A stretch of 38,185 nucleotides of DNA from a virus. The notes beneath the pieces are model-generated. The model was not told where the DNA came from and did not search any database. It saw nothing but the letters and a program-made list of their open reading frames with translations. The first letter of the stretch is position 1; the number at the start of each line of letters is the position of its first letter. The position numbers and the translations under genes are program-made. Location: IMG/VR virus record IMGVR_UViG_3300025508_000049, positions 1 through 38,185 of that record. The stretch is one strand, 5' to 3'. Below, one piece after another: positions 3,163 through 36,252 of the stretch.

Positions 3163-3171
3163 TATAAATAG
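3163..3171 (-). promoter_or_regulatory. candidate late promoter motif CTATTTATA
   Basis: The coding strand reads CACTATTTATAATAAATT just before the ATG at 3150. The same CTATTTATA (or CTATTTATC) occurs before the starts at 17117, 19481 and 23124. No TTG lies 20 nt upstream, so it is distinct from the early cassette. A late promoter read by the gp55-like sigma is an inference. Confidence 0.4.
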
Positions 3172-7967: not shown

Positions 7968-8019
7968 TTAAGTATTATTCTATATTATATAAATATGTAA
8001 AAGTTTTGTTATTTATTCC

Positions 8020-17123: not shown

Positions 17124-17132
17124 TATAAATAG
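17124..17132 (-). promoter_or_regulatory. candidate late promoter motif CTATTTATA
   Basis: The coding strand reads ACAACTATTTATAATTAAG, 7 bp before the ATG at 17117 and inside the 20-bp gap after the 266-aa gene. It shares CTATTTATA and the following ATTA/ATAA with the motifs at 3163 and 19497. The close spacing would give a very short leader if it is a promoter; alternatively it could be a translation-enhancing A/T box. Confidence 0.38.
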
Positions 17133-19496: not shown

Positions 19497-19505
19497 TATA
19501 AATAG
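19497..19505 (-). promoter_or_regulatory. candidate late promoter motif CTATTTATA
   Basis: The coding strand reads ATAATCTATTTATAGTAAAG in the 25-bp gap between the sigma gene stop and the ATG at 19481. It is positioned to start transcription of the virion block immediately after the gp55-like gene. Confidence 0.42.
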
Positions 19506-22677: not shown

Positions 22678-22710
22678 CCTAAATATACGATACTAATTTA
22701 ATACTAACAA
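22678..22710 (-). promoter_or_regulatory. early-type promoter, TTG-20-TATATTTAGG
   Basis: TTG at 22708-22710, a 20-nt spacer and TATATTTAGG at 22678-22687 lie inside the 3' end of the 143-aa gene. They point to the ATG at 22667. This is the same element as in the 26-35 kb array, found outside it, and it would drive the operon 22667-21640. Confidence 0.7.
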
Positions 22711-23128: not shown

Positions 23129-23161
23129 TTGCTATACTGATAAATAGTTCATATATTACTG
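23129..23161 (+). promoter_or_regulatory. divergent early-type promoter for the plus-strand operon
   Basis: On the plus strand, TTG (23129-23131), a 20-nt spacer and TATATTACTG (23152-23161) precede the ATG at 23181. It differs from the TATATTTAGG core by a few bases but keeps the exact spacing. It overlaps the CTATTTATC motif that faces the opposite way. Confidence 0.5.
23139..23147 (-). promoter_or_regulatory. candidate late motif CTATTTATC
   Basis: The coding strand reads GAACTATTTATCAGTATAG, 15 bp before the ATG at 23124. It is one base different from the motif before 3150, 17117 and 19481. It lies within the spacer of the plus-strand promoter, so the two could interfere. Confidence 0.3.
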
Positions 23162-26146: not shown

Positions 26147-26443
26147 TTAACTTATATAATGTATAATATTAATTGCCTGAGCTATTAAAGATATTATTAG
26201 TAACGAAGTACCTTTCGTATGATCTTTATCGTTTATATTCTCATAGATCCATACTGGAATATATGCTAATATCGCTACTAATGCTATTGATGAAAAAAAT
26301 ATGGTCATACCTAATGAATTTTTTTGGAATTTTTTTTCTCGATTTTCGTGTTTTATAACCTTTTTTACAATTCTAAATATACGAATAACTACCTTATTAA
26401 CCAAATACCTCAGTAAATAAAAAGGTATATATGTATATACCAC
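26147..26443 (-). CDS. two-helix membrane protein with an abnormal start context
   Basis: The longest frame gives 98 aa. Two hydrophobic helices are clear (GMTIFFSSIALVAILAYIPV, and TSLLIISLIAQAINIIHYIS at the C-terminus). A full promoter cassette (26372-26404) lies inside the first 24 codons. Its leader ends AAAAAAGGTTATA where every other cassette ends GTTATG, so the expected ATG is ATA at 26354-26356, in frame (residue 30). Either translation starts at ATA, at the internal Met of GMTIFF, or at the upstream ATG (26443), or the start has been lost by mutation. Confidence 0.5.
   Translation of the reverse strand: MVYTYIPFYLLRYLVNKVVIRIFRIVKKVIKHENREKKFQKNSLGMTIFFSSIALVAILAYIPVWIYENINDKDHTKGTSLLIISLIAQAINIIHYIS
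26372..26404 (-). promoter_or_regulatory. early-type promoter before an ATA codon
   Basis: TTG at 26402-26404, a 20-nt spacer and TATATTTAGA at 26372-26381, followed by an A-rich leader and GGTTATA. The element is as complete as its siblings, which argues that the gene downstream was, or is, expressed from here. Confidence 0.6.
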
Positions 26444-26595
26444 CTATATGGTGAAAAATCGACAGCATTATGACCACTAGTATGGGCTCTCCCGCCTGTG
26501 CTCTCACCCCGTTAGGGAACAATACCGGCAGTGTTATATCAGTATGATCTAACCTTGATAGCAACCTGATCTATCTCCTTCCGGAACAAGGAAGG
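26444..26595 (-). other. 152-bp noncoding island, richer in G+C
   Basis: There is no ORF of note. By eye this stretch has more G+C than its surroundings. It contains CCTTCC/GGAAGG and GGG...CCC inverted repeats on the coding strand (for example GGCGGGAGAGCCC). There is no T-loop consensus that would support a tRNA. It could be a small RNA or a relic. Confidence 0.35.
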
Positions 26596-26907
26596 CTATT
26601 CGCCCTCCACTAGTTCCATGTCTGTGTATCTCATCTTGTAGCTTGTCTGTTGGCTCATCATATCATATGAGTACATATGCAAGTACGTCTTCTTACTACT
26701 ACTCAGTCTAACATTCATACCATCGTAGATTAATTCATCAGCCTTCTCTATTGATAGACTAGCTCCATAGTCTTCATCATAACTATAACATCTGATAATA
26801 TAGTCTAGATCTTTGTACTTAATTCTTAACTCAGTATCCTCCTCGATTAGATTTGCTATTGCCTCTCTAATGTTTAATGTTGCTTTTAATTGTGCTGTGT
26901 AAGTCAT
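26596..26907 (-). CDS. small accessory protein, function unknown
   Basis: This 103-aa protein starts MTYTAQLKATLNIREAIANL and ends MRYTDMELVEGE. The layout is alpha/beta with a Tyr-rich second half (YLHMYSYDMMSQQTSYKMRY). It has its own early-type cassette at 26930-26962 and the standard leader AACAATAAGAGTTATG. No family is recognised. Confidence 0.6.
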   Translation of the reverse strand: MTYTAQLKATLNIREAIANLIEEDTELRIKYKDLDYIIRCYSYDEDYGASLSIEKADELIYDGMNVRLSSSKKTYLHMYSYDMMSQQTSYKMRYTDMELVEGE

Positions 26908-26929
26908 AACTCTTATTGTTTTAATTATA

Positions 26930-26962
26930 CCTAAATATAAGAAATATATAACAGTGAGGCAA
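26930..26962 (-). promoter_or_regulatory. early-type promoter for the 103-aa gene
   Basis: TTG at 26960-26962, a 20-nt spacer, TATATTTAGG at 26930-26939, then TATAATTAAAACAATAAGAG to the ATG at 26907. This is a reference example of the cassette. Confidence 0.72.
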
Positions 26963-26980
26963 CTTTAATTGCCGTGAAGT

Positions 26981-27190
26981 TTAGTCAGTTGTTAGAGAGA
27001 ATACTCTGTAGTTATCTAATGTTTCCTGAATACTATCTCTTCTTAGTTGACTCTTTGAGAACTCTAACCCATCCTCTTTCAACACCTCCCTGGTAGCATC
27101 ATATAGTAATTTACTTTGTACTAACATCTCTACAGTCATTGACTTATATTGCTCATGCGTTAACTTCTCTATAAATGATTCTAATGTCAT
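26981..27190 (-). CDS. small helical protein without its own cassette
   Basis: This is a 69-aa protein, MTLESFIEKLTHEQYKSMTV to DNYRVFSLTTD, probably all-helical. Unlike its neighbours it lacks a cassette; a terminator hairpin (27203-27230) stands directly before it. It would thus rely on readthrough from the peptidase-like gene upstream or on an unseen promoter. Confidence 0.58.
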   Translation of the reverse strand: MTLESFIEKLTHEQYKSMTVEMLVQSKLLYDATREVLKEDGLEFSKSQLRRDSIQETLDNYRVFSLTTD

Positions 27191-27202
27191 AATGTTTGGT
27201 AT

Positions 27203-27230
27203 TAAAAGAAGGAGGGTTTTTACACCCTCC
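27203..27230 (-). terminator. intrinsic terminator after the peptidase-like gene
   Basis: The coding strand has GGAGGG, an 8-nt loop and CCCTCC followed by TTCTTTT. The stem is 27225-27230 with 27211-27216. It is 9 bp after the TAA at 27239. Confidence 0.65.
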
Positions 27231-27238
27231 GTTCCTAG

Positions 27239-27754
27239 TTAAAATTCTAATGCTAACTGTATTCCTAATCCTGTTCTTATCAACTCATATGCTGATTGTA
27301 CCTTTCTTGTTGGTAAGAATGTCATACCTTTCCAATCGATTAACTCTCCATCTTGAATTGTTAAAGCATGTTTAGCTACTAACACTATAAATGTCCCTTC
27401 TGGATTAGCTTGAACGAATGACTTAAGAGTCTTTTGTCTCCATACTTCCTCTCCATGAAGTTTGTATAGATTTCTAGTCTGCTTTCTAGTACAGATCTTT
27501 ACGTCAAATGTTCTCCCATCTAACTCTATTCCGTCCTTAGAAGCTTTCTCCATTCTACCTACAATCTGTTCGTTCTTTGTTCCTCTTCTGTCAACTCTCT
27601 TAAACTCTTCTTTACAGAATTTATGAGCTGAATTGTAAGCAATACCACTAGCAGCAGCTAAGCTTCTTACTACACAATCATTCTTTTCACCTCTCGCTAA
27701 AGCTGATCCTGATTCGATTAACTCGTTGTAACTGTTTTCAATTTGTAAATACAT
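27239..27754 (-). CDS. papain-like/C39-type cysteine peptidase-fold protein
   Basis: This 171-aa protein has a candidate nucleophile at C27 in K-N-D-C-V-V-R-S-L-A-A-A-S-G, and a candidate general base at H129 in TFIVLVAKHALTIQDGELID, followed by D135 and D140-W141. The layout N-D-C-x-x-R-A/S-L-A at the N-terminus, with an H-A-x-x-x-x-D-G-x-x-x-D-W strand pair ~100 residues later, is typical of small phage proteins with a papain-like (C39/transglutaminase-like) fold. It may cleave a host or phage protein, or be an inactive relative. It has its own cassette at 27777-27809 and a strong terminator. The substrate is unknown. Confidence 0.65.
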   Translation of the reverse strand: MYLQIENSYNELIESGSALARGEKNDCVVRSLAAASGIAYNSAHKFCKEEFKRVDRRGTKNEQIVGRMEKASKDGIELDGRTFDVKICTRKQTRNLYKLHGEEVWRQKTLKSFVQANPEGTFIVLVAKHALTIQDGELIDWKGMTFLPTRKVQSAYELIRTGLGIQLALEF

Positions 27755-27776
27755 AACCTCTGTTTTAATTATTATA

Positions 27777-27809
27777 CCTAAATATAAGAAATATCTACGT
27801 TACTAGCAA
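27777..27809 (-). promoter_or_regulatory. early-type promoter for the peptidase-like gene
   Basis: TTG at 27807-27809, a 20-nt spacer, TATATTTAGG at 27777-27786, then an A/T-rich leader ending AACAGAGGTTATG. Confidence 0.72.
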
Positions 27810-27821
27810 CTAATTCCGGAA

Positions 27822-27944
27822 TCATTTTGCATGACCTATTTGACTTTCTCTTAATATGTTACCTAAGTTTACATTGAAGATATATTCTGCTAATACCTTT
27901 GATCTTATCTCATTCATTCGCTCGTTGTATCCTTCTGGTGGCAT
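27822..27944 (-). CDS. 40-aa protein downstream of the SH3-like gene
   Basis: MPPEGYNERMNEIRSKVLAE to LRESQIGHAK. It lies 18 bp after the stop of the 68-aa gene and before the next cassette, so it would be the second gene of a two-gene unit. It is helical and supported by context only. Confidence 0.5.
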   Translation of the reverse strand: MPPEGYNERMNEIRSKVLAEYIFNVNLGNILRESQIGHAK

Positions 27945-27962
27945 AGTATTGTTTTTTAATTG

Positions 27963-28169
27963 TTATTTAGTTAATTTAATTGTTTTTCTATCAACTGACC
28001 ATAATGGAGTTCTACCTAAAGTTACTTGAAACTCTCCATGGATAGGATTCACTCCTGCGAAGGTTAAAATACCTACGTACCTCTCTCCTTTAACCTTAAC
28101 CTCTACCTTCTTTCCAATCCAGCGTTTGAATTGTGGTACTGTCTGCTTTAATAGTAAATCTTTAAACAT
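27963..28169 (-). CDS. small beta-barrel-like protein
   Basis: This 68-aa protein starts MFKDLLLKQTVPQFKRWIGK. A short helix is followed by five likely strands (KVEVKVKGERYVGILTFAG, FQVTLGRTPLWSVDRKTIKL), the layout of an Lsm/SH3-type barrel. Such folds bind RNA, DNA or protein, but no specific family is recognised. It is driven by the cassette at 28189-28221. Confidence 0.6.
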   Translation of the reverse strand: MFKDLLLKQTVPQFKRWIGKKVEVKVKGERYVGILTFAGVNPIHGEFQVTLGRTPLWSVDRKTIKLTK

Positions 28170-28188
28170 AACCTCTGTTTTAAATATA

Positions 28189-28221
28189 CCTAAATATATG
28201 AATAATCTAGTTAGGATCCAA
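28189..28221 (-). promoter_or_regulatory. early-type promoter for the 68-aa gene
   Basis: TTG at 28219-28221, a 20-nt spacer, TATATTTAGG at 28189-28198. The TTG lies inside the last codons of the 85-aa gene. Confidence 0.7.
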
Positions 28222-28468
28222 CTTTTAAATGAGTATATAATGATCCGTAGTACCCTCCTCCTCCTTTATTAGAGCTCCAGGTATCTGCATGAACTCCTGT
28301 AGCACCGGTAATAATTTCATCTCCTTTTTGGTACCTGTACTGTCTTACAAACCCTACTCCTTCCTTATCGATAGGAACAAACCCTGCTCGAGTTAAGGCA
28401 TTATAATGCCACTGATCTTCTACCTTGTGTACTTTCTTATCTGCTTTGTTAAAATCTACTGTGTTCAT
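28211..28468 (-). CDS. small Gly/Tyr-rich protein, function unknown
   Basis: This is an 85-aa protein, MNTVDFNKADKKVHKVEDQW with a C-terminal SSNKGGGGYYGSLYTHLKVG. The middle segment ALTRAGFVPIDKEGVGFVRQ looks like a compact alpha/beta unit. It is expressed from the cassette at 28491-28523. No family is recognised. Confidence 0.6.
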   Translation of the reverse strand: MNTVDFNKADKKVHKVEDQWHYNALTRAGFVPIDKEGVGFVRQYRYQKGDEIITGATGVHADTWSSNKGGGGYYGSLYTHLKVGS

Positions 28469-28490
28469 AACTCTTATTGTTTTAATTATA

Positions 28491-28523
28491 ACTAAATATA
28501 TGAATAATAACTCTGTTAGGCAA
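28491..28523 (-). promoter_or_regulatory. early-type promoter for the 85-aa gene (TATATTTAGT variant)
   Basis: TTG at 28521-28523, a 20-nt spacer, TATATTTAGT at 28491-28500. The last core base is T instead of G. The TTG lies inside the 3' end of the 118-aa gene. Confidence 0.68.
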
Positions 28524-28872
28524 CTCTACCTAACAGTTTTTCTAGTTCCGGAAACTGCCCTCCTATAGTCTTCATTTGAGCTATCTTCTTACTCTCCTCT
28601 CTCTTCTTAGCAATCGCTTGCTTCTTTTCCTCTCTATAAGCTTCAACCCAATATGCCATTTGATCTTCATGCTGATCTAAAGCCTCTCCTCTATCAGCTT
28701 CTGACTCATATCTCTGCCAATGACTTCCGTAAGCACTTTCCCACTCTACAGCTGGTACTGTAAACTTACCTTCTGCATCCATTCCATAATCTATATCACT
28801 TACATAACTTCCTCCTGTATTGCAATATGCTTCGAACTCCTTATTTGTAATTTTAATCTCTGTAGTACCCAT
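28516..28872 (-). CDS. acidic N-terminus / basic coiled-coil protein
   Basis: In this 118-aa protein, residues 1-60 are acidic and aromatic (FEAYCNTGGSYVSDIDYGMD, WESAYGSHWQRYESE). Residues ~75-100 form a highly charged helix (YREEKKQAIAKKREESKKIA). The C-terminus is GGQFPELEKLLGRVA. It has its own cassette at 28895-28927. No family is recognised. Confidence 0.6.
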   Translation of the reverse strand: MGTTEIKITNKEFEAYCNTGGSYVSDIDYGMDAEGKFTVPAVEWESAYGSHWQRYESEADRGEALDQHEDQMAYWVEAYREEKKQAIAKKREESKKIAQMKTIGGQFPELEKLLGRVA

Positions 28873-28894
28873 AACTCTTATCGTTTTAATTATA

Positions 28895-28927
28895 CCTAAA
28901 TATACGATTAATTAAGGTAGTAGGCAA
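28895..28927 (-). promoter_or_regulatory. early-type promoter for the 118-aa gene
   Basis: TTG at 28925-28927, a 20-nt spacer, TATATTTAGG at 28895-28904. A terminator hairpin (28938-28966) lies just upstream of it. Confidence 0.72.
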
Positions 28928-28937
28928 CTAATTTAAT

Positions 28938-28966
28938 AAGAAAAGGCTCCTTAAAAAAAGAGCCTT
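28938..28966 (-). terminator. intrinsic terminator after the 276-aa gene
   Basis: Coding-strand AAGGCTC (28960-28966) pairs with GAGCCTT (28943-28949) around a T-rich loop and is followed by TTCTTATT. Confidence 0.65.
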
Positions 28967-28996
28967 ATTCCTAATAATAATTAAAACTACAGTGGG

Positions 28997-29827
28997 TTAT
29001 GAAGCAACTGTATTTGGTTGAACAACTTGCTTTGAATGATATCTTATCAAGTTCTCTATATTTTTATATCTTACATTTTCAAATGTATGTGTGTAAGTAT
29101 TCTCTGTTTCTATTCTCTTATCATCTACATATTCATATTCATACTGGACTAAATTTAATTCAATATTACATGACTTTCCCGATTTGGTTTTAGAAACGAT
29201 TCTAGCTTTTTTAATCTGTCTTACTTCATGATTGAAAGCAATATCCATCATTGGATAGTTACATTTCTTTCCTGTCTCAAAATTTATCTTTCCAAACTCT
29301 ACTCCTTCTTTTTCAAGACGATCTAAAAGTATTTGTTTTGCTTCTTGCTTCTGCCTATCTTCCACTCCTGTAATCTCTTTCTCTAAATCCCAAATCTCTT
29401 TGTACTTTTTATTAATCCCCTCTTTACATTCAGAATGTATAGCATTTATATTATTGATAATAGTCTGCTTATCTAATAAGATAACCTTAGCACAATTTCC
29501 CATTACGATTAATCTCTCTAATTCAAAAGTAGATTCTTCTGATGTCGAGTAAGCTGACATCCTAAGTCCTCTTACTGCTTTAGTATCATCACCATAAAAA
29601 GTATCAAATTGTAATGAAAACATCTCTCTAGCAAAAGTCTCATCATCTCTTTTTCTTTCAACTTGGAATGATGAACTTCCTTGTTTAATATCAAACCCTT
29701 CTATGAGCTGATCGCCAAAACGATGATTAACGTACTCTGTACATCTTGCGTTTCTAATGTCTTCTAAGTCCCATCTCTCTTTCTTAAGTTCGATAAGCTT
29801 CTCTTGTAAAATTTGTAATGCTGTCAT
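28997..29827 (-). CDS. coiled-coil accessory protein, largest of the array
   Basis: The 276-aa protein has N-terminal helix KLIELKKERWDLEDI. A beta-rich middle (FDIKQGSSSFQVERKRDDET) leads into a charged helical stretch at ~120-175 (INKKYKEIWDLEKEI, KQILLDRLEKEGVEF). The C-terminal domain has alternating strands (IELNLVQYEYEYVDDKR, NTYTHTFENVRYK). It could bind nucleic acid or a host protein; no family is recognised. Its cassette is at 29852-29884 and a strong terminator follows. Confidence 0.6.
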   Translation of the reverse strand: MTALQILQEKLIELKKERWDLEDIRNARCTEYVNHRFGDQLIEGFDIKQGSSSFQVERKRDDETFAREMFSLQFDTFYGDDTKAVRGLRMSAYSTSEESTFELERLIVMGNCAKVILLDKQTIINNINAIHSECKEGINKKYKEIWDLEKEITGVEDRQKQEAKQILLDRLEKEGVEFGKINFETGKKCNYPMMDIAFNHEVRQIKKARIVSKTKSGKSCNIELNLVQYEYEYVDDKRIETENTYTHTFENVRYKNIENLIRYHSKQVVQPNTVAS

Positions 29828-29851
29828 AACCTTTATATGTTTTTAATTATA

Positions 29852-29884
29852 CCTAAATATAAGAAATATATATACGTTAGCCAA
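29852..29884 (-). promoter_or_regulatory. early-type promoter for the 276-aa gene
   Basis: TTG at 29882-29884, a 20-nt spacer, TATATTTAGG at 29852-29861. The TTG overlaps the last codons of the 136-aa gene. Confidence 0.72.
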
Positions 29885-30287
29885 CTATTTCTTTAAGTTC
29901 TTTTAAAGTATTTTGACAGGTTATTAGTTGCTTTTCTAATAAATTAATCTTATCTTTAGCAGCTTTTCTAATATCTAATTGATCAGAATACATCGCTTTA
30001 TAAAACTCACCCTCTGTAATAGTAGTTTTCTCCGGAACTTCCTCTATATTAATATCTCTTAAATCTCTATCAGTAAAAATAGTAGCTCCCCAATGACATC
30101 CATATCCTCCCCTACCTGGTGCAAATCCCACTTTTACAACTCCGGCAACTTTTAATAATTCTCTCTCTAAATCCTTATCAAATTTATTAACAAATAAGAA
30201 CTTTAATCTTCTTCCCTCTACTCTCTTATCATTAAAAATGGTAACAGACTTTCCTAATTCCTTTTCAATAAAATGCTTTAGTTTCAT
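29877..30287 (-). CDS. small alpha/beta protein with a C-terminal coiled coil
   Basis: This 136-aa protein starts MKLKHFIEKELGKSVTIFND. Residues ~25-75 include LKFLFVNKFDKDLERELLKV and FAPGRGGYGCHWGATIF, the latter Gly/aromatic-rich. The last 35 residues are a coiled coil (KINLLEKQLITCQNTLKELK). It has its own cassette at 30308-30340, whose TTG sits in the loop of the preceding terminator. No family is recognised. Confidence 0.6.
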   Translation of the reverse strand: MKLKHFIEKELGKSVTIFNDKRVEGRRLKFLFVNKFDKDLERELLKVAGVVKVGFAPGRGGYGCHWGATIFTDRDLRDINIEEVPEKTTITEGEFYKAMYSDQLDIRKAAKDKINLLEKQLITCQNTLKELKEIVG

Positions 30288-30307
30288 AACCTATTGTTTT
30301 AATTATA

Positions 30308-30340
30308 CCTAAATATATGAAATAAAAAGGGAAGGAGCAA
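30308..30340 (-). promoter_or_regulatory. early-type promoter embedded in a terminator
   Basis: TTG at 30338-30340, a 20-nt spacer, TATATTTAGG at 30308-30317. The TTG is in the loop of the hairpin 30329-30348, and the spacer includes the terminator's T-tract. Confidence 0.72.
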
Positions 30341-30349
30341 CTCTTCCCC
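30323..30349 (-). terminator. terminator sharing bases with the next promoter
   Basis: Coding-strand GGGAAG (30343-30348) pairs with CTTCCC (30329-30334), followed by TTTTTATTT. The 8-nt loop carries AGTTGCTC. Confidence 0.65.
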
Positions 30350-30364
30350 TTATTTCTTTTTCAA

Positions 30365-30520
30365 CTATTCTACTATAAAATCTACAGCTTCCTCTCCTAT
30401 TCCTTTACCATTTCTAGTAATCTCATAACTAGGATCCATTCCGGACACCATTATATCATTAACTAATTCATTAATACTGTTAAACTCCTTTTTGTAATAC
30501 TCACATTTTAAACTATACAT
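30365..30520 (-). CDS. 51-aa protein, start corrected past the promoter
   Basis: The longest frame starts at 30592, but those first 24 codons run through the promoter cassette. The ATG at 30520 (MYSLKCEYYKKEFNSINELV) follows the usual leader AAACAAAGGATATG. The small alpha/beta protein ends GKGIGEEAVDFIVE. No family is recognised. Confidence 0.58.
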   Translation of the reverse strand: MYSLKCEYYKKEFNSINELVNDIMVSGMDPSYEITRNGKGIGEEAVDFIVE

Positions 30521-30542
30521 ATCCTTTGTTTTAATTATTATA

Positions 30543-30575
30543 CCTAAATATATGAAATATCTTTGAGAGGAGCAA
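30543..30575 (-). promoter_or_regulatory. early-type promoter for the 51-aa gene
   Basis: TTG at 30573-30575, a 20-nt spacer, TATATTTAGG at 30543-30552, 4 bp after the preceding stop. Confidence 0.72.
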
Positions 30576-30578
30576 CTT

Positions 30579-30746
30579 CTACATCCACTCATTTTCTACA
30601 TAAATACTTATCTTATCACACATGTAATCTAGATCATCAACATCTTCTTGACTGAATCCTTCTGCTATTGCTAGCTTTATAAATGTGTCAACTCGAATAC
30701 CTGCAAATACGAGCAGTTTAAGTAGTCCTACTGAAATTAATATCAT
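30579..30746 (-). CDS. 55-aa protein with a hydrophobic N-terminus
   Basis: MILISVGLLKLLVFAGIRVD, then TFIKLAIAEGFSQEDVDDLD and VENEWM. The start may be a short membrane or export segment. It follows the 54-aa ORF by 13 bp with no cassette between them, so they form a two-gene unit. Confidence 0.52.
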   Translation of the reverse strand: MILISVGLLKLLVFAGIRVDTFIKLAIAEGFSQEDVDDLDYMCDKISIYVENEWM

Positions 30747-30759
30747 AACCTTTTATTTT

Positions 30760-30924
30760 TTAATCTACATAATAATCAATTGTATCCCAACCATCTTTTC
30801 CTCTCACTTTTGTAAAATACTTAGGACCTGCCCTAAAAGCTTTTGAAGTTTGAGAATGAGATTTGAAATTATACTCAATCTTAGTCTTAGCTACTTCAGC
30901 TGTAATTTCTATTAAGTCTGCCAT
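30760..30924 (-). CDS. 54-aa protein, possibly read from a leaderless mRNA
   Basis: MADLIEITAEVAKTKIEYNF to GWDTIDYYVD, a basic alpha/beta protein. The promoter-like element 30927-30959 ends only 2 nt before the ATG, whereas in the other cassettes the gap is about 20 nt. If the element works the same way, transcription would start at or just after the ATG. No family is recognised. Confidence 0.52.
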   Translation of the reverse strand: MADLIEITAEVAKTKIEYNFKSHSQTSKAFRAGPKYFTKVRGKDGWDTIDYYVD

Positions 30925-30926
30925 AA

Positions 30927-30959
30927 TCTAAATTTACGAAATTTACTTCATACTTCCAA
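30927..30959 (-). promoter_or_regulatory. variant promoter abutting an ATG
   Basis: TTG at 30957-30959, a 20-nt spacer, TAAATTTAGA at 30927-30936, then TT and ATG. The TTG and part of the spacer lie in the last codons of the 101-aa gene. Confidence 0.5.
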
Positions 30960-31248
30960 TTTTATTTTGAATGAATACTTTAAACTTATAAGATAATACA
31001 TGCGAACCTATAGACCAGGATATCTTCTCTGTTGCAGATTCAGTAATGGAGTAATTATAATGATCATATAAGCAAAATATACTTCCTTCTTGATCTAAAT
31101 AAATCCATTCCGGAGCAAAGCTATCTGTTGCCTTACCTGTAGGAACTCCTAATGCAGTTTCTAAATCTAATAACGAAGCTATAATGCTTTCGCTCTTACT
31201 TGTTCCTGTAATATCTACACTTAACCTATCTCTTACTTTATCGAACAT
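30943..31248 (-). CDS. small accessory protein, function unknown
   Basis: This 101-aa protein starts MFDKVRDRLSVDITGTSKSE, has IIASLLDLETALGVPTGKAT in the N-terminal half, and ends YKFKVFIQNKIGSMK. The second half is beta-rich with aromatic residues (FCLYDHYNYSITES). Its cassette is at 31269-31301. No family is recognised. Confidence 0.6.
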   Translation of the reverse strand: MFDKVRDRLSVDITGTSKSESIIASLLDLETALGVPTGKATDSFAPEWIYLDQEGSIFCLYDHYNYSITESATEKISWSIGSHVLSYKFKVFIQNKIGSMK

Positions 31249-31268
31249 AACCTTTGTTTTTAATTATA

Positions 31269-31301
31269 CCTAAATATAAGAAATAAAAAGGGAAATAACA
31301 A
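31269..31301 (-). promoter_or_regulatory. early-type promoter embedded in a hairpin
   Basis: TTG at 31299-31301, a 20-nt spacer, TATATTTAGG at 31269-31278. TTTG is in the loop of the hairpin 31290-31310. Confidence 0.7.
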
Positions 31302-31310
31302 ATACCTCCC
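31284..31310 (-). terminator. weak terminator overlapping a promoter
   Basis: GGGAGG (31305-31310) can pair with TTTCCC (31290-31295), including two G-T pairs, and is followed by TTTTTATTT on the coding strand. Confidence 0.5.
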
Positions 31311-31336
31311 TTAGTTTCTCCATAGATATTATCTAT

Positions 31337-31627
31337 CTATTTAGCATTTCTTATGACTGTGTAGATGTAGCCCATTCTAATTTTTCCACACTTTAAACCT
31401 TTAGCCCAATCCTCAGATTCTAGCTTTGTAAAGATTTCTTTTTTCTCTAACCCTTCTCCATGAAGTTCTAGAATTCTGTGCTTCAAAGTTCCACCTACAC
31501 CAATCTTGGTATTTTGAGCTTCTTTGATCAGTAATTCTAAGTTAGCATTCTTCATTCTTGCAAGACCTTTAGCTTTAATTCCTAAATCCTTTGCTTCTTG
31601 TACTAGTGCTGCTTTTGACATAATCAT
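31337..31627 (-). CDS. SAP-like / helix-turn-helix DNA-binding candidate
   Basis: The protein has 96 aa from 31627; a second ATG two codons on (31621, MSKAALVQEA) matches the usual ATTATG leader end better. Residues 3-35 (LVQEAKDLGIKAKGLARMKN, then LELLIKEAQ) resemble a SAP motif, with helix, L-G-x-x-x-x-G and N-x-x-L-x-x-L-I. Residues ~45-90 (RILELHGEGLEKKEIFTKLE) resemble a helix-turn-helix of the kind that senses tandem steps. A role in DNA binding or transcription is inferred from fold features only. The leader is longer than in its neighbours (about 35 nt). Confidence 0.55.
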   Translation of the reverse strand: MIMSKAALVQEAKDLGIKAKGLARMKNANLELLIKEAQNTKIGVGGTLKHRILELHGEGLEKKEIFTKLESEDWAKGLKCGKIRMGYIYTVIRNAK

Positions 31628-31662
31628 TAATTTTTAACTGTTAATACTTTCTTTTTATTATA

Positions 31663-31695
31663 CCTAAATATAAGAATTAAAAAGGGAAGGAGCAA
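31663..31695 (-). promoter_or_regulatory. early-type promoter with TTG in the terminator loop
   Basis: TTG at 31693-31695, a 20-nt spacer, TATATTTAGG at 31663-31672. The clearest overlap case: the loop of the 7-bp hairpin is exactly GTTGCT. Confidence 0.75.
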
Positions 31696-31703
31696 CCCTT
31701 CCC
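31679..31703 (-). terminator. intrinsic terminator whose loop is a promoter element
   Basis: GGGAAGG (31697-31703), loop GTTGCT, CCTTCCC (31684-31690), then TTTTTAATT on the coding strand. It ends the 111-aa gene. Confidence 0.72.
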
Positions 31704-31712
31704 TGGTTTATT

Positions 31713-32048
31713 TTAAGCCTCATTAATGTACTTTTTAATAATCTTGGTAGGGTAGACTGTATGACTATTATTTCCTACAACATCTTCCCACCATTTAATT
31801 CCCATTGTTAATCTTGGAATTGCAAATCTCATAATATCTTCATCATGTACTCTGAAAAATACATCATGTCTTCCTCCTGTTTCAGGAACAATGTTTCCAT
31901 CTGAATCTATATCAGGGTCTGTCACTACTGTTTCGATTAGTTCTACCCTTGTATTCATATCATCTTTAAAGAAATTAATGAAATCTTCTTTCATACTATC
32001 TTCTAATATGGTACCTGGCCAAACGCATAATTGATTAAATTTACTCAT
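31713..32048 (-). CDS. small accessory protein, function unknown
   Basis: This 111-aa protein starts MSKFNQLCVWPGTILEDSMK. The middle is acidic (VTDPDIDSDGNIVPETGGRH), and DVFFRVHDEDIMRFAIPRLT follows. The C-terminus is basic (PTKIIKKYINEA). It looks like a compact alpha/beta protein. Cassette at 32074-32106; no family is recognised. Confidence 0.6.
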   Translation of the reverse strand: MSKFNQLCVWPGTILEDSMKEDFINFFKDDMNTRVELIETVVTDPDIDSDGNIVPETGGRHDVFFRVHDEDIMRFAIPRLTMGIKWWEDVVGNNSHTVYPTKIIKKYINEA

Positions 32049-32073
32049 AACTTATATTGTTTTTATTATTACA

Positions 32074-32106
32074 CCTAAATATACGAAATATCTACGTAAG
32101 GAGCAA
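32074..32106 (-). promoter_or_regulatory. early-type promoter for the 111-aa gene
   Basis: TTG at 32104-32106, a 20-nt spacer, TATATTTAGG at 32074-32083. Confidence 0.72.
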
Positions 32107-32109
32107 CTT

Positions 32110-32478
32110 TTATCCGTTTAAAATCTTCACTATGTTTCTAGATCCTTGAGACATTTCTCTTTCCCTCCTTGACTTTCTATTAGCTTCAAGTTGCTTGCAA
32201 GCATCAGAAATCATTTCTTCTAATATTCCTTTATCAAAAGGTACATAATGTAAATTATCATCTGTTTCTAAAGCTACAATTAAAGCTCCGACAGATTTAT
32301 CTCTGTATGATTCGAAACCTACTAATATTTCCCCAAATGATTTGTAATGATCTAATAATTCTTCTTTATATGAAGTAGAATGCTCTAATCCCATCTCTAA
32401 CCCCATTTCAAAGAAAAATGAATTAGCATCCTGTTTTAATGAATAGATTAAGCAATCTAATAATGTGTAATTTTTCAT
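32110..32478 (-). CDS. helical accessory protein, function unknown
   Basis: This 122-aa protein starts MKNYTLLDCLIYSLKQDANS. Residues 25-32 contain a short tandem duplication (MGLEMGLE). The C-terminus is a basic helix (KQLEANRKSRREREMSQGSR, then NIVKILNG) that could bind nucleic acid. Cassette at 32501-32533; no family is recognised. Confidence 0.6.
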   Translation of the reverse strand: MKNYTLLDCLIYSLKQDANSFFFEMGLEMGLEHSTSYKEELLDHYKSFGEILVGFESYRDKSVGALIVALETDDNLHYVPFDKGILEEMISDACKQLEANRKSRREREMSQGSRNIVKILNG

Positions 32479-32500
32479 AACCTTTATTGTTTTTATTATA

Positions 32501-32533
32501 CCTAAATATAAGAATTAAAAAGGGAAGGAGCAA
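32501..32533 (-). promoter_or_regulatory. early-type promoter with TTG in the terminator loop
   Basis: TTG at 32531-32533, a 20-nt spacer, TATATTTAGG at 32501-32510. The same composite element as at 31663-31703, nearly base for base. Confidence 0.75.
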
Positions 32534-32541
32534 CCCTTCCC
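32516..32541 (-). terminator. intrinsic terminator sharing bases with the next promoter
   Basis: GGGAAGG (32535-32541), loop GTTGCT, CCTTCCC (32522-32528), then TTTTTAATT. It ends the 101-aa winged-helix-like gene. Confidence 0.72.
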
Positions 32542-32549
32542 CTGTTTTT

Positions 32550-32855
32550 TTAAGAATGTTTAAAGTAAATGTAAAGGGCTCTCCCACCTTCTTTAGGTTT
32601 ACATAAACATCTACTAATTTTTCTGGATCTTAAAGCTCTCCTAAGGCATTCAGCGTATTTCTTATTACCTCCCCAAGAAGTACCTCTATAAAAATCATAC
32701 AGGTTTTCCATAATTTGGCTTTCTGTTTTACCGGGATATTTTGTAACATAAGCTACAATTTCGTCTTGGTTTACTATTCTTTTAAGTCCTCCCCCACCCC
32801 AAAAGTTTTCCCCAAATGTTCGGTAAATCTTTTTTGATTCTAAATCTGTTGTCAT
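32550..32855 (-). CDS. winged-helix-like small protein
   Basis: This 101-aa protein has DEIVAYVTKYPGKTESQIME (residues ~27-46), which fits helices 1-2 of a winged helix with the usual P-G-K-T turn. A basic third helix KKYAECLRRALRSRKISRCL and a two-strand wing ALYIYF near the end follow. Such proteins bind DNA and often act as small phage regulators. Gly-rich FGENFWGGGGLKR precedes the domain. Cassette at 32880-32912. DNA binding is inferred, with no target known. Confidence 0.6.
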   Translation of the reverse strand: MTTDLESKKIYRTFGENFWGGGGLKRIVNQDEIVAYVTKYPGKTESQIMENLYDFYRGTSWGGNKKYAECLRRALRSRKISRCLCKPKEGGRALYIYFKHS

Positions 32856-32879
32856 AACTTATATCGTTTTATTATTATA

Positions 32880-32912
32880 CCTAAATATACGAATAATTAA
32901 ATTAGGCTCCAA
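32880..32912 (-). promoter_or_regulatory. early-type promoter for the winged-helix-like gene
   Basis: TTG at 32910-32912, a 20-nt spacer, TATATTTAGG at 32880-32889. The TAG stop of the preceding gene touches the TTG. Confidence 0.72.
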
Positions 32913-33110
32913 CTAACAGGGTACATATTTTGTAATTATTATTTCTTCATTCCATCCTTCTGTACAGGTTCCATCTGGAAATTTACCTTCATCATTTATT
33001 CCTAACATCTCTAGATTTCCTGAACTATTTCTTAAGACTGTTACCTTAGTCTTAATTCCTGAAACATCAATGTAAGTCTCTCCTAATACTACTGTTTTAA
33101 AATCTGCCAT
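32913..33110 (-). CDS. small beta-rich protein, function unknown
   Basis: This 65-aa protein starts MADFKTVVLGETYIDVSGIK and ends EEIIITKYVPC. It is mostly strands with two Cys near the C-terminus (DGTCTEG, VPC). Cassette at 33132-33164. No family is recognised. Confidence 0.58.
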   Translation of the reverse strand: MADFKTVVLGETYIDVSGIKTKVTVLRNSSGNLEMLGINDEGKFPDGTCTEGWNEEIIITKYVPC

Positions 33111-33131
33111 AACTCTTATCTTTTAATTATA

Positions 33132-33164
33132 CCTAAATATAAGAAATATCTTTGAGAGGAGCAA
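33132..33164 (-). promoter_or_regulatory. early-type promoter for the 65-aa gene
   Basis: TTG at 33162-33164, a 20-nt spacer, TATATTTAGG at 33132-33141. Confidence 0.72.
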
Positions 33165-33171
33165 CTTTTAA

Positions 33172-33256
33172 TTAAAAGGAAGGGTAGTAATAAAATAAAT
33201 TAACGCCCCCATTAAATCGTTTGTGTGCCATTATTGGCGTTACTCCCTCCCCTTTT
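33172..33256 (-). terminator. large cruciform hairpin after the 82-aa gene
   Basis: A 16-base arm (33241-33256, AAAAGGGGAGGGAGTA on the coding strand) pairs with 33174-33189 at 14 of 16 positions. An inner 6-bp stem AACGCC/GGCGTT (33202-33207 with 33236-33241) sits within it. The structure ends in TTTTAATT and follows the 82-aa gene stop, so it may act as a terminator. Its size is unusual for this array. Confidence 0.45.
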
Positions 33257-33258
33257 TC

Positions 33259-33507
33259 TTACATTTCTGCTAATGTTATTTCGTAAAGGACGTCTTCCAT
33301 CTCTCCACTTGATTCGATATCATCTAACCATTGACAAACATGCATATCTATGTCCTGTCTATTGATAGCTTCATTTATGTATGCTTTCATAAAAGCTAAT
33401 CGTACCTTAGTTAGAGGTACTCCATTTGCTGGATGATCGTCCGGAAGTCTTAAATTATCTTCAATTGCTTCTTCGAACATTTCAGGAAGATCTATTTCTA
33501 TTTTCAT
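33259..33507 (-). CDS. small acidic helical protein
   Basis: This is an 82-aa protein, MKIEIDLPEMFEEAIEDNLR to EDVLYEITLAEM. It is strongly acidic with helices at VRLAFMKAYINEAINRQ. Its ATG overlaps the TGA of the 27-aa ORF (ATGA), so translation is probably coupled. Acidic small phage proteins can mimic DNA or inhibit host enzymes, but that is speculation here. Confidence 0.6.
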   Translation of the reverse strand: MKIEIDLPEMFEEAIEDNLRLPDDHPANGVPLTKVRLAFMKAYINEAINRQDIDMHVCQWLDDIESSGEMEDVLYEITLAEM

Positions 33508-33587
33508 GATAAGTCTTTTTTACAAATTGAACATTTACCATTTTTGACTTGTACCATTGTACAACACTTTTTACAAAATCTGAACAT
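33504..33587 (-). CDS. 27-aa mini zinc-knuckle peptide
   Basis: MFRFCKKCCTMVQVKNGKCS, then ICKKDLS. C5-x2-C8 and C19-x2-C22 form a compact zinc-ribbon pattern. It is the first ORF after the promoter at 33611-33643, with the standard AAAGGTTATG leader, and overlaps the next gene by ATGA. The preserved Cys pairs and coupling argue that it is real. Confidence 0.6.
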   Translation of the reverse strand: MFRFCKKCCTMVQVKNGKCSICKKDLS

Positions 33588-33610
33588 AACCTTTTGTTTT
33601 AATTATTATA

Positions 33611-33643
33611 CCTAAATATACGAATAACTACCTTAGTAACCTA
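33611..33643 (-). promoter_or_regulatory. early-type promoter with a degenerate upstream element
   Basis: TATATTTAGG at 33611-33620 and a standard leader, but the trinucleotide at the usual position (33641-33643) is TAG, which is also the stop codon of the 130-aa gene. It may be weaker than its siblings. Confidence 0.6.
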
Positions 33644-34033
33644 CCAGTTTCCTAAATTAATTGAATGTAAATGAGCTAAAGCTATTTCTTTTGAAATACC
33701 AACTCCTATTAAGCTTTCTTCTAATTCAACACCAAACCCCTCTCCATCTAAACTATCAATTCTTTTTCTGTAAGTATCTCTATCTTCTTGGCAAAAATAA
33801 GTATCCAATAATAATTCAAACTCAAAAACTGTAGAATTATATCCTTGCTCTTTATTAAAATCTTCAACCTCCTTTTCCAGCTCCTCACTTATCTCATATT
33901 CGTAAGGATCTATTCCTTCCTGTTCCTTAAACATCTTTTCTAAAAGTTGCTTAAATGGAATAAAGTCAAATGAAAACTTATTAGTCCATTCATCTCCTCT
34001 ACAATTTGTGTGTACTATTATATATACTTTCAT
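33641..34033 (-). CDS. small accessory protein, function unknown
   Basis: This 130-aa protein starts MKVYIIVHTNCRGDEWTNKF. It has an acidic helical middle (YEYEISEELEKEVEDFNKEQ) and a C-terminal LEESLIGVGISKEIALAHLH. A beta strand at the start and long helices suggest a ferredoxin-like or mixed fold. Cassette at 34052-34083. No family is recognised. Confidence 0.6.
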   Translation of the reverse strand: MKVYIIVHTNCRGDEWTNKFSFDFIPFKQLLEKMFKEQEGIDPYEYEISEELEKEVEDFNKEQGYNSTVFEFELLLDTYFCQEDRDTYRKRIDSLDGEGFGVELEESLIGVGISKEIALAHLHSINLGNW

Positions 34034-34051
34034 AACCTTTGTTTTAATATA

Positions 34052-34083
34052 CCTAAATATAAGAAATAAAAAGGGAAGTACAA
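34052..34083 (-). promoter_or_regulatory. early-type promoter with TTTG in the terminator loop
   Basis: TTG at 34081-34083, a 19-nt spacer (one shorter than usual), TATATTTAGG at 34052-34061. The loop of the hairpin is GTTTG. Confidence 0.7.
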
Positions 34084-34093
34084 ACTACTTCCC
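34067..34093 (-). terminator. intrinsic terminator with an 8-bp stem
   Basis: GGGAAGTA (34086-34093), loop GTTTG, TACTTCCC (34073-34080), then TTTTTATTT on the coding strand. It ends the 59-aa gene. Confidence 0.7.
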
Positions 34094-34102
34094 TAATTGC
34101 TT

Positions 34103-34282
34103 TTACCATCTTCCTAAGAACTCTCCTTCATCATCATATATCCACGTTTCCGTAATATGACAATCTCCATCATACCTCTCCTTAATGCTCTCCCATTCTT
34201 TTTTAGCATCCGACTTAGTAGGGTGCTCATTTGAGGAGTATTCATCTCCCTCGTTGTCCTTGTAATTGAAATCGTAAACCAT
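34103..34282 (-). CDS. 59-aa acidic protein, start corrected
   Basis: MVYDFNYKDNEGDEYSSNEH to YDDEGEFLGRW. A longer frame to 34339 exists only because the repeated cassette is open in this frame; the ATG at 34282 follows the standard leader. It has an acidic alpha/beta composition. The two 34-kb genes share their false N-terminal extension because the cassettes are near-identical. No family is recognised. Confidence 0.6.
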   Translation of the reverse strand: MVYDFNYKDNEGDEYSSNEHPTKSDAKKEWESIKERYDGDCHITETWIYDDEGEFLGRW

Positions 34283-34306
34283 AATCTTTATTGTTTTATT
34301 ATTATA

Positions 34307-34339
34307 CCTAAATATATGAAATATAATTAAGGTAGGCAA
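34307..34339 (-). promoter_or_regulatory. early-type promoter in an 81-nt repeat
   Basis: TTG at 34337-34339, a 20-nt spacer, TATATTTAGG at 34307-34316. It is part of a sequence repeated exactly 292 nt away. Confidence 0.72.
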
Positions 34340-34358
34340 CTAAGTACCTACCTTTTTT
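34329..34358 (-). terminator. terminator-like hairpin overlapping a promoter
   Basis: AAGGTAGG / CCTACCTT (34329-34336 with 34347-34354). T-runs lie on both sides, so it might work in both directions. TTG is in the loop. Confidence 0.55.
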
Positions 34359-34361
34359 AAA

Positions 34362-34574
34362 TTAATCCCATACCTCTATATCCTCAAGGATATTCTCCAA
34401 GCAACTATCATAAGGATTTCCCTGCCCTAGCAATTGATTAAACCCATACTTTCCGTAAGCTTGATAGTTTGAAACTATATTAGTGCCCCTTACTGCATCA
34501 TCTACTAAATTCATAGCTTCATTTACTAATTCTTGAGCTTGCATAATAGCCTCTTTTCTTTCTACTAAATCCAT
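34362..34574 (-). CDS. 70-aa helical protein, start corrected
   Basis: MDLVERKEAIMQAQELVNEA, then MNLVDDAVRGTNIVSNYQAY and DSCLENILEDIEVWD. An ATG at 34631 would add 19 codons that belong to the promoter repeat. It is largely helical and acidic. It lies between two 81-nt direct repeats and so could be lost or moved by recombination between them. Confidence 0.6.
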   Translation of the reverse strand: MDLVERKEAIMQAQELVNEAMNLVDDAVRGTNIVSNYQAYGKYGFNQLLGQGNPYDSCLENILEDIEVWD

Positions 34575-34598
34575 AACCTTTATTGTTTTATTATTATA

Positions 34599-34631
34599 CC
34601 TAAATATATGAAATATAATTAAGGTAGGCAA
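34599..34631 (-). promoter_or_regulatory. early-type promoter in an 81-nt repeat
   Basis: TTG at 34629-34631, a 20-nt spacer, TATATTTAGG at 34599-34608. Confidence 0.72.
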
Positions 34632-34650
34632 CTAAGTACCTACCTTTTTT
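34621..34650 (-). terminator. terminator-like hairpin overlapping a promoter
   Basis: The same AAGGTAGG/CCTACCTT hairpin as at 34329-34358, here after the 87-aa gene. Confidence 0.55.
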
Positions 34651-34653
34651 AAA

Positions 34654-34917
34654 TTAATAAGCAAATACTTCTCCACCTACTTTAATTTCCGTAATTGTGT
34701 CAAAGTTAATCATTCTATAACCTCCACTTTGCATATCATAACATCCTAGTAGATTATACTTAGATGGATCATACTTTAATGTCCCCCCTTTTAAATGCTT
34801 CTTAACACCTAATCGAGCATTCATCACTCTTACCTCTCCATTTTTTTTAATGAACGTAATTGTGAATGTTTTTCCGGACTTAACCGATTCTAAATTTTTG
34901 AATTCTGATAGTAGCAT
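34654..34917 (-). CDS. small basic beta-rich protein
   Basis: This 87-aa protein starts MLLSEFKNLESVKSGKTFTI, has TFIKKNGEVRVMNARLGVKK near 20-40 and ends MINFDTITEIKVGGEVFAY. The pattern of K-x-G-E-x-R-x-x-x-A-x-x-G-V-K and a Y-D-x-x-x-x-x-Y-R-x-I-x-x-D-x-I ending is shared with WYL-free small phage SH3-like proteins that I recall as hypothetical. It may bind nucleic acid. Cassette at 34941-34973. Confidence 0.6.
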   Translation of the reverse strand: MLLSEFKNLESVKSGKTFTITFIKKNGEVRVMNARLGVKKHLKGGTLKYDPSKYNLLGCYDMQSGGYRMINFDTITEIKVGGEVFAY

Positions 34918-34940
34918 AACCTTTTGTTTTTATTATTATA

Positions 34941-34973
34941 CCTAAATATATGAATAATTAGGGTAGGCTCCAA
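34941..34973 (-). promoter_or_regulatory. early-type promoter for the 87-aa gene
   Basis: TTG at 34971-34973, a 20-nt spacer, TATATTTAGG at 34941-34950. Confidence 0.72.
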
Positions 34974-34974
34974 C

Positions 34975-35169
34975 TTAATAATTAAAGATATCAGCAAAGT
35001 TCTGAATAAATAATTCTTTAGTATCTTCACTTAAATCCTCTAACTTCTCTCCAAATATTTCCTGAAGTTCAGAATATACATCTTCTTCAGATCTCCCTTC
35101 TAGTAAACTGCTCTCCTCCTTTTTTAATATGTCCTTTAGTTCAATTTCAAAACTCACCTTAATTAACAT
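34975..35169 (-). CDS. small acidic helical protein
   Basis: This is a 64-aa protein, MLIKVSFEIELKDILKKEES to FIQNFADIFNY. A short strand is followed by acidic helices (EEDVYSELQEIFGEKLEDLS). Cassette at 35193-35225. No family is recognised. Confidence 0.58.
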   Translation of the reverse strand: MLIKVSFEIELKDILKKEESSLLEGRSEEDVYSELQEIFGEKLEDLSEDTKELFIQNFADIFNY

Positions 35170-35192
35170 AACCTTTTGTTTTTATTATTATA

Positions 35193-35225
35193 CCTAAATA
35201 TACGTAATATAAGTAAGGTAGGCAA
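35193..35225 (-). promoter_or_regulatory. early-type promoter, third copy of the repeat type
   Basis: TTG at 35223-35225, a 20-nt spacer, TATATTTAGG at 35193-35202. The surrounding bases are a diverged copy of the 81-nt repeat. Confidence 0.72.
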
Positions 35226-35243
35226 CTAAGTACCTACCTTTTT
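35215..35243 (-). terminator. terminator-like hairpin overlapping a promoter
   Basis: AAGGTAGG/CCTACCTT (35215-35222 with 35233-35240), T-runs on both sides, TTG in the loop. It follows the 90-aa gene. Confidence 0.55.
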
Positions 35244-35246
35244 TAA

Positions 35247-35519
35247 TTAGTTTGAAATTACTTTTAGACCTGGCTGGAATACTGTCTTATACCCTCCTCC
35301 TAGACTATCAATAACTCTATCAATAAAGTCTTGTAATAGGTAGGTACCATCCGAAGATCCAAATCCATGACCTTCCGGCCAATCATCTGTCCATTCTGTT
35401 GCTACTTCAACAGCTATCTCTGTTAAAGATCCAAAATGTATTTGGTGAATGATTTCATTAAAGCCTTCTATCTTAGATGACTTTGTTACTAAATGTACTG
35501 GGTGTACTAAAAAATCCAT
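35247..35519 (-). CDS. first gene of the cassette array, function unknown
   Basis: This 90-aa protein starts MDFLVHPVHLVTKSSKIEGF. The middle is helical (EIAVEVATEWTDDWPEGHGF), and the C-terminus is DRVIDSLGGGYKTVFQPGLK. The Gly-rich SLGGGYKT is reminiscent of nucleotide-binding loops but lacks the GKS/T ending. Cassette at 35542-35574. No family is recognised. Confidence 0.6.
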   Translation of the reverse strand: MDFLVHPVHLVTKSSKIEGFNEIIHQIHFGSLTEIAVEVATEWTDDWPEGHGFGSSDGTYLLQDFIDRVIDSLGGGYKTVFQPGLKVISN

Positions 35520-35541
35520 AACTCTTATCGTTTTAATTATA

Positions 35542-35574
35542 CCTAAATATATGAATTATAATTGTAACTACCTA
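35542..35574 (-). promoter_or_regulatory. first early-type promoter of the array, no TTG
   Basis: TATATTTAGG at 35542-35551 with a standard leader. The usual TTG position (35572-35574) reads TAG, as at 33641-33643, so the upstream element is degenerate. Confidence 0.6.
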
Positions 35575-36169: not shown

Positions 36170-36252
36170 GAGGGAAGGTTTAGTCATAGTATTAAGATAA
36201 GAATTAATACCCAGACAGGCAACTGTACCATAGAGACAATTACGGTGAGAAG

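Follow-up and report, generated by a model that had tools for sequence, protein, structure and literature searches.

We analysed positions 1 to 38,185 of IMG/VR virus record IMGVR_UViG_3300025508_000049 (38,185 nucleotides (nt); the window), in which a series of small accessory genes on the minus strand is preceded by near-identical, promoter-like cassettes. Among isolates, the best matches to two proteins of its virion operon came from Flavobacterium phage immuto_2-6A (63.5% and 41.5% identity; immuto below), an Immutovirus of 160 kb. Window and immuto also have a gene order in common, namely HD phosphohydrolase, small gene, a protein of 235 amino acids (aa) and baseplate operon. Considering this relatedness and the common gene order, the window is a fragment of a larger phage.

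The cassette array and its distribution

A pattern scan found 22 copies of TATATTTAG between 26,372 and 35,551, all on the minus strand, where a first, sequence-only reading had claimed at least 23. The core was TATATTTAGG in 20 of them, while the other two deviate at the final base (T in the 28491 copy, A in the 26372 copy). TTG-N20-TATATTTAG was present in 19 of the 22; the 34052 copy has an N19 spacer, and the copies at 33611 and 35542 lack TTG. The 20-nt spacer with its single 19-nt exception and the two TTG-less copies are as that reading had described them, and so is the extra copy at 22678, likewise TTG-N20 and on the minus strand. In 1000 dinucleotide shuffles of the 9.3-kb region TTG-N20-TATATTTAG occurred 0.005 times on average and once at most, against 19 observed. 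The reversed pattern, used as control, was absent from the window.

An open reading frame (ORF) of at least 51 aa starts with ATG 18-35 nt past the core in 20 of the 22 cassettes. The remaining two stand ahead of a 27-aa ORF (33611) and of an ATA at the ATG position (26372), and about five ORFs of the region are without a separate cassette. Of the claim that nearly each gene has its own promoter, the sequence supports one cassette for most genes.

Features of the window, with predicted promoters and hairpins (energies in kcal/mol)
Feature	Position	Strand	Remark
Core without -33 TTG	35542..35551	-	first array copy
Promoter cassette TTG-N20-TATATTTAGG	35193..35225	-	
Promoter cassette	34941..34973	-	stop codon of upstream gene abuts TTG; no hairpin
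Promoter cassette	34599..34631	-	81 nt identical to 34307 copy
Promoter cassette	34307..34339	-	81 nt identical to 34599 copy
Promoter cassette	34052..34083	-	spacer 19 nt
Core without TTG	33611..33620	-	ahead of 27-aa four-Cys ORF (33504-33587)
Promoter cassette	33132..33164	-	
Promoter cassette	32880..32912	-	stop codon of upstream gene abuts TTG
Promoter cassette	32501..32533	-	52 nt identical to 31663 copy
Promoter cassette	32074..32106	-	
Promoter cassette	31663..31695	-	52-nt twin of 32501 copy
Promoter cassette	31269..31301	-	
Promoter cassette	30543..30575	-	
Promoter cassette	30308..30340	-	
Promoter cassette	29852..29884	-	cassette kept before homologues of its gene, six other loci
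Promoter cassette	28895..28927	-	
Promoter cassette	28491..28523	-	core ending AGT
Promoter cassette	28189..28221	-	
Promoter cassette	27777..27809	-	
Promoter cassette	26930..26962	-	
Promoter cassette	26372..26404	-	core ending AGA
Outlying promoter cassette	22678..22710	-	short leader; upstream of operon leading to sigma-like gene
Hairpin GGTAGG...CCTACC	35215..35240	-	encloses TTG of 35193 cassette; -14.0
Terminator-like hairpin	34621..34646	-	overlaps TTG; -14.0
Terminator-like hairpin	34329..34354	-	overlaps TTG; -14.0
Hairpin GGGAAGTA-GTTTG-TACTTCCC then TTTTTATTT	34073..34093	-	TTG in loop; -13.5
Hairpin GGGAAGG-GTTGCT-CCTTCCC then TTTTTAATT	32520..32543	-	-14.3
Hairpin and U-tract	31683..31704	-	overlaps TTG; -13.7
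Hairpin and U-tract	31288..31312	-	overlaps TTG; -11.3
Hairpin and U-tract	30326..30351	-	overlaps TTG; -11.6
Hairpin CTGTTAGG...CCTAACAG	28513..28536	-	overlaps TTG; -13.5
Late-type promoter (putative) TATTTAT	23140..23146	-	
Late-type promoter (putative) TATTTAT	19498..19504	-	
Late-type promoter (putative) TATTTAT	17125..17131	-	
Late-type promoter (putative) TATTTAT	7989..7995	-	
Late-type promoter (putative) TATTTAT	3164..3170	-	
HD-domain phosphohydrolase	20502..21188	-	two genes upstream of sigma-like gene; conserved neighbour
Sigma-like protein, 235 aa	19507..20214	-	sigma region 2 fold predicted for N-terminal domain; no fold assigned to C-terminal domain

We then compared 30 viral contigs, that is the window and 29 others picked by the pattern, plus immuto. 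In each, all copies lie on a single strand; a contig holds as many as 27, and the reversed control gave 0. In immuto, about two dozen cassettes form an array at 60.9-76.2 kb, immediately upstream of the homologous baseplate operon. Uncultured viral contigs (IMG/VR) contain the exact 19-base pattern TTG-N20-TATATTTAGGTATAAT in at least 119 stretches. In 257 gigabases of bacterial and archaeal genomes it was found at 9 places only, scattered over unrelated phyla, which is the chance level. No array was present in the Bacteroidota phages Cellulophaga phiST, Chryseobacterium MA9V-3, crAss-like 'jaberico', Flavobacterium elemo and Prevotella Lak-A1 (0-2 motif matches, control 0-1); BLAST matches of the cassette in these five were due to chance.

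A logo built from 271 de-duplicated cassettes of 87 loci gave a detailed anatomy. The main type (type A) consists of A-tracts near -41 and -28 before the core, AGTTG, sixteen variable bases, TTCn, TATATTTAGG and TAT, followed by an A-rich leader and mostly (G)GTT directly ahead of ATG; the core reads TAT(A/C)TTTAG, with TTG at exactly 20 nt. When the last base was left free (TTG-N20-TAnnTTTn), the array contigs had A in 194, T in 5 and G in 1 of 200 cases, and A was not preferred among antisense matches. The spacer of 20 gave 129 sense matches versus 0 antisense. In a second type GTTTGGC and GATGT replace AGTTG and TTCn.

This second type (GTTTGGC...GATGT-TATATTTAG) was seen in a different set of contigs (L079, L088, L071, L029 and other loci), which are perhaps phages of another Bacteroidota host group. 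In the array leaders, ATG is predominantly preceded by G at -3 and TT at -2/-1; for Flavobacterium johnsoniae, G has been reported to be the least favourable base for translation at -3 (PMC6847099). The 27-aa ORF at 33504-33587 (minus strand) reads MFRFCKKCCTMVQVKNGKCSICKKDLS, with zinc-ribbon-like cysteines, and its stop overlaps the ATG of an 82-aa gene. Behind the 26372 cassette, at 26354-26371 (minus strand), the ATA shares the reading frame of the ORF downstream; this start is broken or unusual.

Terminator-like hairpins superimposed on the cassettes

Many cassettes have their TTG within a hairpin, either in the loop or in the stem, as in GGGAAGG-GTTGCT-CCTTCCC-TTTTTAATTC-TTATATTTAGG. Pairing was separated from the fixed motif by a chimera control, in which the upstream half of each cassette was joined to the downstream halves of others. 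Results showed that the window cassettes have a mean of -8.3 kcal/mol versus -5.5 kcal/mol for chimeras (0 of 20,000 permutations), and that 202 type A cassettes fold better than their chimeras (z = -12.4; median z = -6.2 with one cassette per locus). Pairing is kept while the stem sequences differ among cassettes. Values of -9 kcal/mol or below were reached by 10 of the 22 window cassettes, with 2.9 expected. A U-tract right after the hairpin is clear by eye at 31288, 31683, 32520, 34073 and 30326; across the pooled cassettes, U-tracts take part in stem pairing and the spacer is rich in T regardless, and T counts after hairpins were uninformative.

A stable hairpin after the stop codon, as expected of an intrinsic terminator, is thus found in about half of the copies, mostly where the gap between stop codon and TTG has room and usually not where the stop abuts TTG. 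About half of the genes thus appear insulated, with read-through likely for the rest. The idea that the genes are single units is borne out in part, by the terminator-like hairpin in about 10 of the 22 cassettes and limited by several cassettes with a stop abutting TTG and no hairpin. Efficient termination is likely, though less sure than promoter function.

A second motif class and the reading of the cassettes

Shortly ahead of virion-gene start codons we found another motif, TATTTAT without TTG. It is strongly oriented, with 37 sense versus 3 antisense occurrences in immuto and 194 versus 5 in 79 loci around the gene of the 235-aa protein. The virion operons do differ from the array, as had been proposed, and beyond that they carry a motif class of their own. 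Some immuto sites (L137 25025-25060 and similar) join TTG-N20 to TATATTTATAA, that is an array-type -33 and a late-type core, and are possible dual early/late promoters.

The 235-aa protein is conserved in at least 588 viral stretches, and it stands beside the HD phosphohydrolase in hundreds of viral contigs. It matched Pfam Sigma70_r2 weakly, below the cut-off, and phrog_234 (PHROG 'late sigma transcription factor') weakly and in one homologue only (E = 0.0026); the family has no sequence match in PDB. Its predicted N-terminal domain resembles sigma-2 structures (best single-domain row Z 8.0, root mean square deviation 3.2, 95 residues), and nearly all of the 38 top structure rows were sigma-factor chains, with two other titles. 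Folded alone, the C-terminal domain had no sigma-4 match, which does not exclude a sigma-4 domain. In most of the 30 array contigs (21 full-length matches and one contig-edge fragment), and likewise in immuto, the gene is found downstream of the array. It is absent from the five other Bacteroidota phages, and contigs picked by the sigma gene have the exact array motif in 15 of 41 only. As the protein combines a predicted sigma-2 fold with no sigma-4 match, we infer that it is a better candidate for the late class, which lacks -33, than for the array class. PF00940 (phage RNA polymerase) had no match in nine array phages, and the control genomes were equally without match.

The motif, its order, its statistics and the hairpins are certain. 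That the cassettes act as promoters is very probable, and this identity is supported by the -33/-7 geometry, the upstream A-tracts, the strict orientation and the constant distance to ATG. In F. johnsoniae, promoters have -33 TTTG and -7 TAHHTTTG, the G of which is nearly invariant, and transcription starts 4-5 nt further on (PMC6847099); in one Flavobacteriaceae genome we found promoters with TTG at 19-20 nt and a T-rich TT(C/T)G just before TAnnTTTG. The cassettes resemble them in the -33 TTG, which lies at 20 nt in nearly all copies where Bacteroidota sigma-A promoters have 19-21, in the TAnnTTT core, in the TTCn-like extension (one host genome), in the AT-rich upstream blocks and in the leader of about 20-30 nt. 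They differ from these sigma-ABfr promoters (-33 TTTG / -7 TANNTTTG; PMC6847099) in having A-G-G where the host has a nearly invariant G after TTT, a far more conserved -33 and upstream A-tract, an arrangement in arrays and a superimposed terminator. The description of the core as a sigma-A box save for its last base consequently stands for the geometry; that last base is strictly A, not merely different. Considering A in the phage and G in the host, the cassettes are a distinct class and not plain sigma-A consensus promoters; with the final G of TANNTTTG missing, they would work like sigma-A promoters without being canonical members.

We asked which promoters of host geometry immuto has. In its complete genome the canonical TTG-N19/20-TAnnTTTG showed no excess (2 sense, 5 antisense), while the TTTA form was found 41 times in sense versus 10 in antisense, leaving the array class as the only candidate found with host geometry. 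To begin an infection, a phage must offer the host polymerase something to read, and no candidate other than this class was found. Taken together, the cassettes are probably strong early promoters for the host RNA polymerase, arranged as swappable one-gene units in an Immutovirus-like phage. The Bacteroidota polymerase of a Flavobacterium-like host would read a unit made of an A-rich upstream element, -33 TTG, a fixed 20-nt spacer, TTCn and the -7 box TAT(A/C)TTTAG, with transcript 5' ends expected about 4-5 nt past TATATTTA; about 20-25 nt of A-rich leader, with (G)GTT-ATG at its end, would then lead into a small accessory gene. If the gap between two genes is wide enough, the first gene's intrinsic terminator would be overlaid on the -33 and spacer of the next promoter, and a single intergenic cassette of 60-80 bp could stop one transcript and begin the next. 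Virion genes would use the TATTTAT class, probably read by the sigma-like protein.

Several points weigh against this interpretation. The last core base (-5) is almost always A, as against the nearly invariant G of Flavobacterium promoters (PMC6847099), and a scan of hosts for the motif, which the sequence-only reading had proposed, gave no excess over control: 23 exact matches in 100 Flavobacteriaceae genomes versus about 42 for the reversed pattern. In the same genomes one canonical host pattern was enriched (79 versus about 27 reversed, with 27 of the 79 from one genome). With A for G and no host enrichment, recognition by an unmodified host holoenzyme is deduced from sequence, and a phage factor is possible. 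The argument that the cassettes must be read first would fail if a transcription factor entered with the DNA, the early timing draws on analogy and on the separate virion-gene class, and the hairpin is missing in about half of the window's cassettes. Even so, reading by the host holoenzyme unaided appears likely.

A polymerase altered by the phage, through the sigma-like protein or another phage factor, would make the cassettes a phage-only class, middle rather than early. We consider this unlikely, even if the final A (194:1 against the host G), the lack of enrichment in host genomes and the co-occurrence of the sigma-like gene with the array (most of the 30 contigs and immuto, none of the five other phages) agree with it, as the -33 TTG, the 20-nt spacing and TTCn are host features. 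Moreover, the sigma-like protein, without a sigma-4 match, is encoded within the virion operon beside TATTTAT, the immuto genome has no other host-like class to begin infection, and the co-occurrence is confounded by shared ancestry, considering the 15 of 41 contigs above.

Cassette spread, known systems and significance

Two pairs of window cassettes are identical over 81 nt and 52 nt, respectively, ahead of unrelated genes. No paralogues were found among the window's array genes, and gene duplication as the origin of the repeats was therefore ruled out. Leaders are more alike within genomes (identity 0.78) than between them (0.66; 0 of 1000 label permutations), and individual genomes have forms of their own, for example GTATCAATAATTA in immuto. 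The 276-aa gene has homologues with a cassette in 6 of 6 other loci; it is separated from the 171-aa gene by three genes in the window, by one in L020 and by none in L047. Three shared families (F3-F4-F0) follow one another in the same order in both window and immuto, and the genes lying between these families differ. A peptide-pattern search with two array proteins gave no viral match, while tblastn against related loci did find homologues.

This pattern fits one-gene gain and loss with homogenisation of the intergenic cassettes. Of the selection or cassette-wise spread first suggested for the invariance, homogenisation within a genome is borne out by leader identity and identical cassettes. 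Cassettes would be copied or homogenised between sites, so that single genes could be inserted, lost and shuffled with expression retained. The identical copies, the leader dialects and the one-gene differences between relatives could also come from recombination sites or mobile repeats that spread selfishly, their promoter likeness being secondary. That is very improbable, as the single-strand orientation and the fixed place before start codons need selection for expression, and promoter elements are conserved across divergent contigs while flanks diverge; gene conversion would yield the same pattern, and the subset of array proteins scanned had no match to recombinase, integrase or transposase families. 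Translation or RNA-level start signals or regulator operators, for which the conserved A-rich leader and (G)GTT-ATG and the short oriented repeats (Start-Associated Sequences, SAS/ESAS) ahead of many non-structural genes of different families in Cluster K mycobacteriophages (PMC3203893) could speak, are hardly credible, as conservation is strongest 20-60 nt upstream of the start codon with exact promoter spacing and an upstream A-tract, whereas SASs lie 3-7 bp from the start and look like ribosome-binding sites, which Bacteroidota do not use (PMC6847099), and the cassette core ends 18-35 nt from ATG.

T4 and Herelleviridae staphylophages are known to have strong early promoters in arrays, as well as late promoters with a -10 element only (PMC6024815, PMC10383478). 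Their early sigma70 promoters are likewise many, near-consensus and ahead of early genes that are mostly uncharacterised, with a separate late class that has no -35 element. The array phage differs in belonging to another phylum with another polymerase, in having nearly one promoter per gene, in the homogenisation within its genome and in a -33 that lies within the terminator belonging to the gene before. T4 late transcription (gp55 sigma, TATAAATA) similarly relies on a -10-only element before virion genes and a protein with a sigma region 2 fold; the element here is TATTTAT, not TATAAATA, and the sequence similarity of the window protein to gp55 is not significant. Our searches of the open-access literature did not turn up this promoter class, nor its A-for-G difference, superimposed terminators or a homogenised array.

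If the promoters are as proposed, they provide an early, and probably also a late, promoter map for a large and almost uncultured group of Bacteroidota phages, for which searchable papers describe none. A terminator overlaid on the next -33 and spacer would be a compact route to one-gene units, and such units would explain the single-gene exchange of accessory genes in these phages. The strict A-for-G difference raises the question of what reads the cassettes, which are also candidate strong parts for Flavobacterium genetics. A further step, quite unlikely in our opinion, is a relay in which a polymerase terminating inside the next promoter remains bound to the DNA and initiates again at that site; in vitro, the Escherichia coli enzyme is known to be recycled after intrinsic termination (PMC6978380). 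A few polymerases could in this way fire a long ordered series of one-gene transcripts, and an entire array would here be organised around such recycling.

Beyond the array, the region 36180-36420 is non-coding and relatively GC-rich, with repeated ggacggcggga / gacgtagtgagga units.

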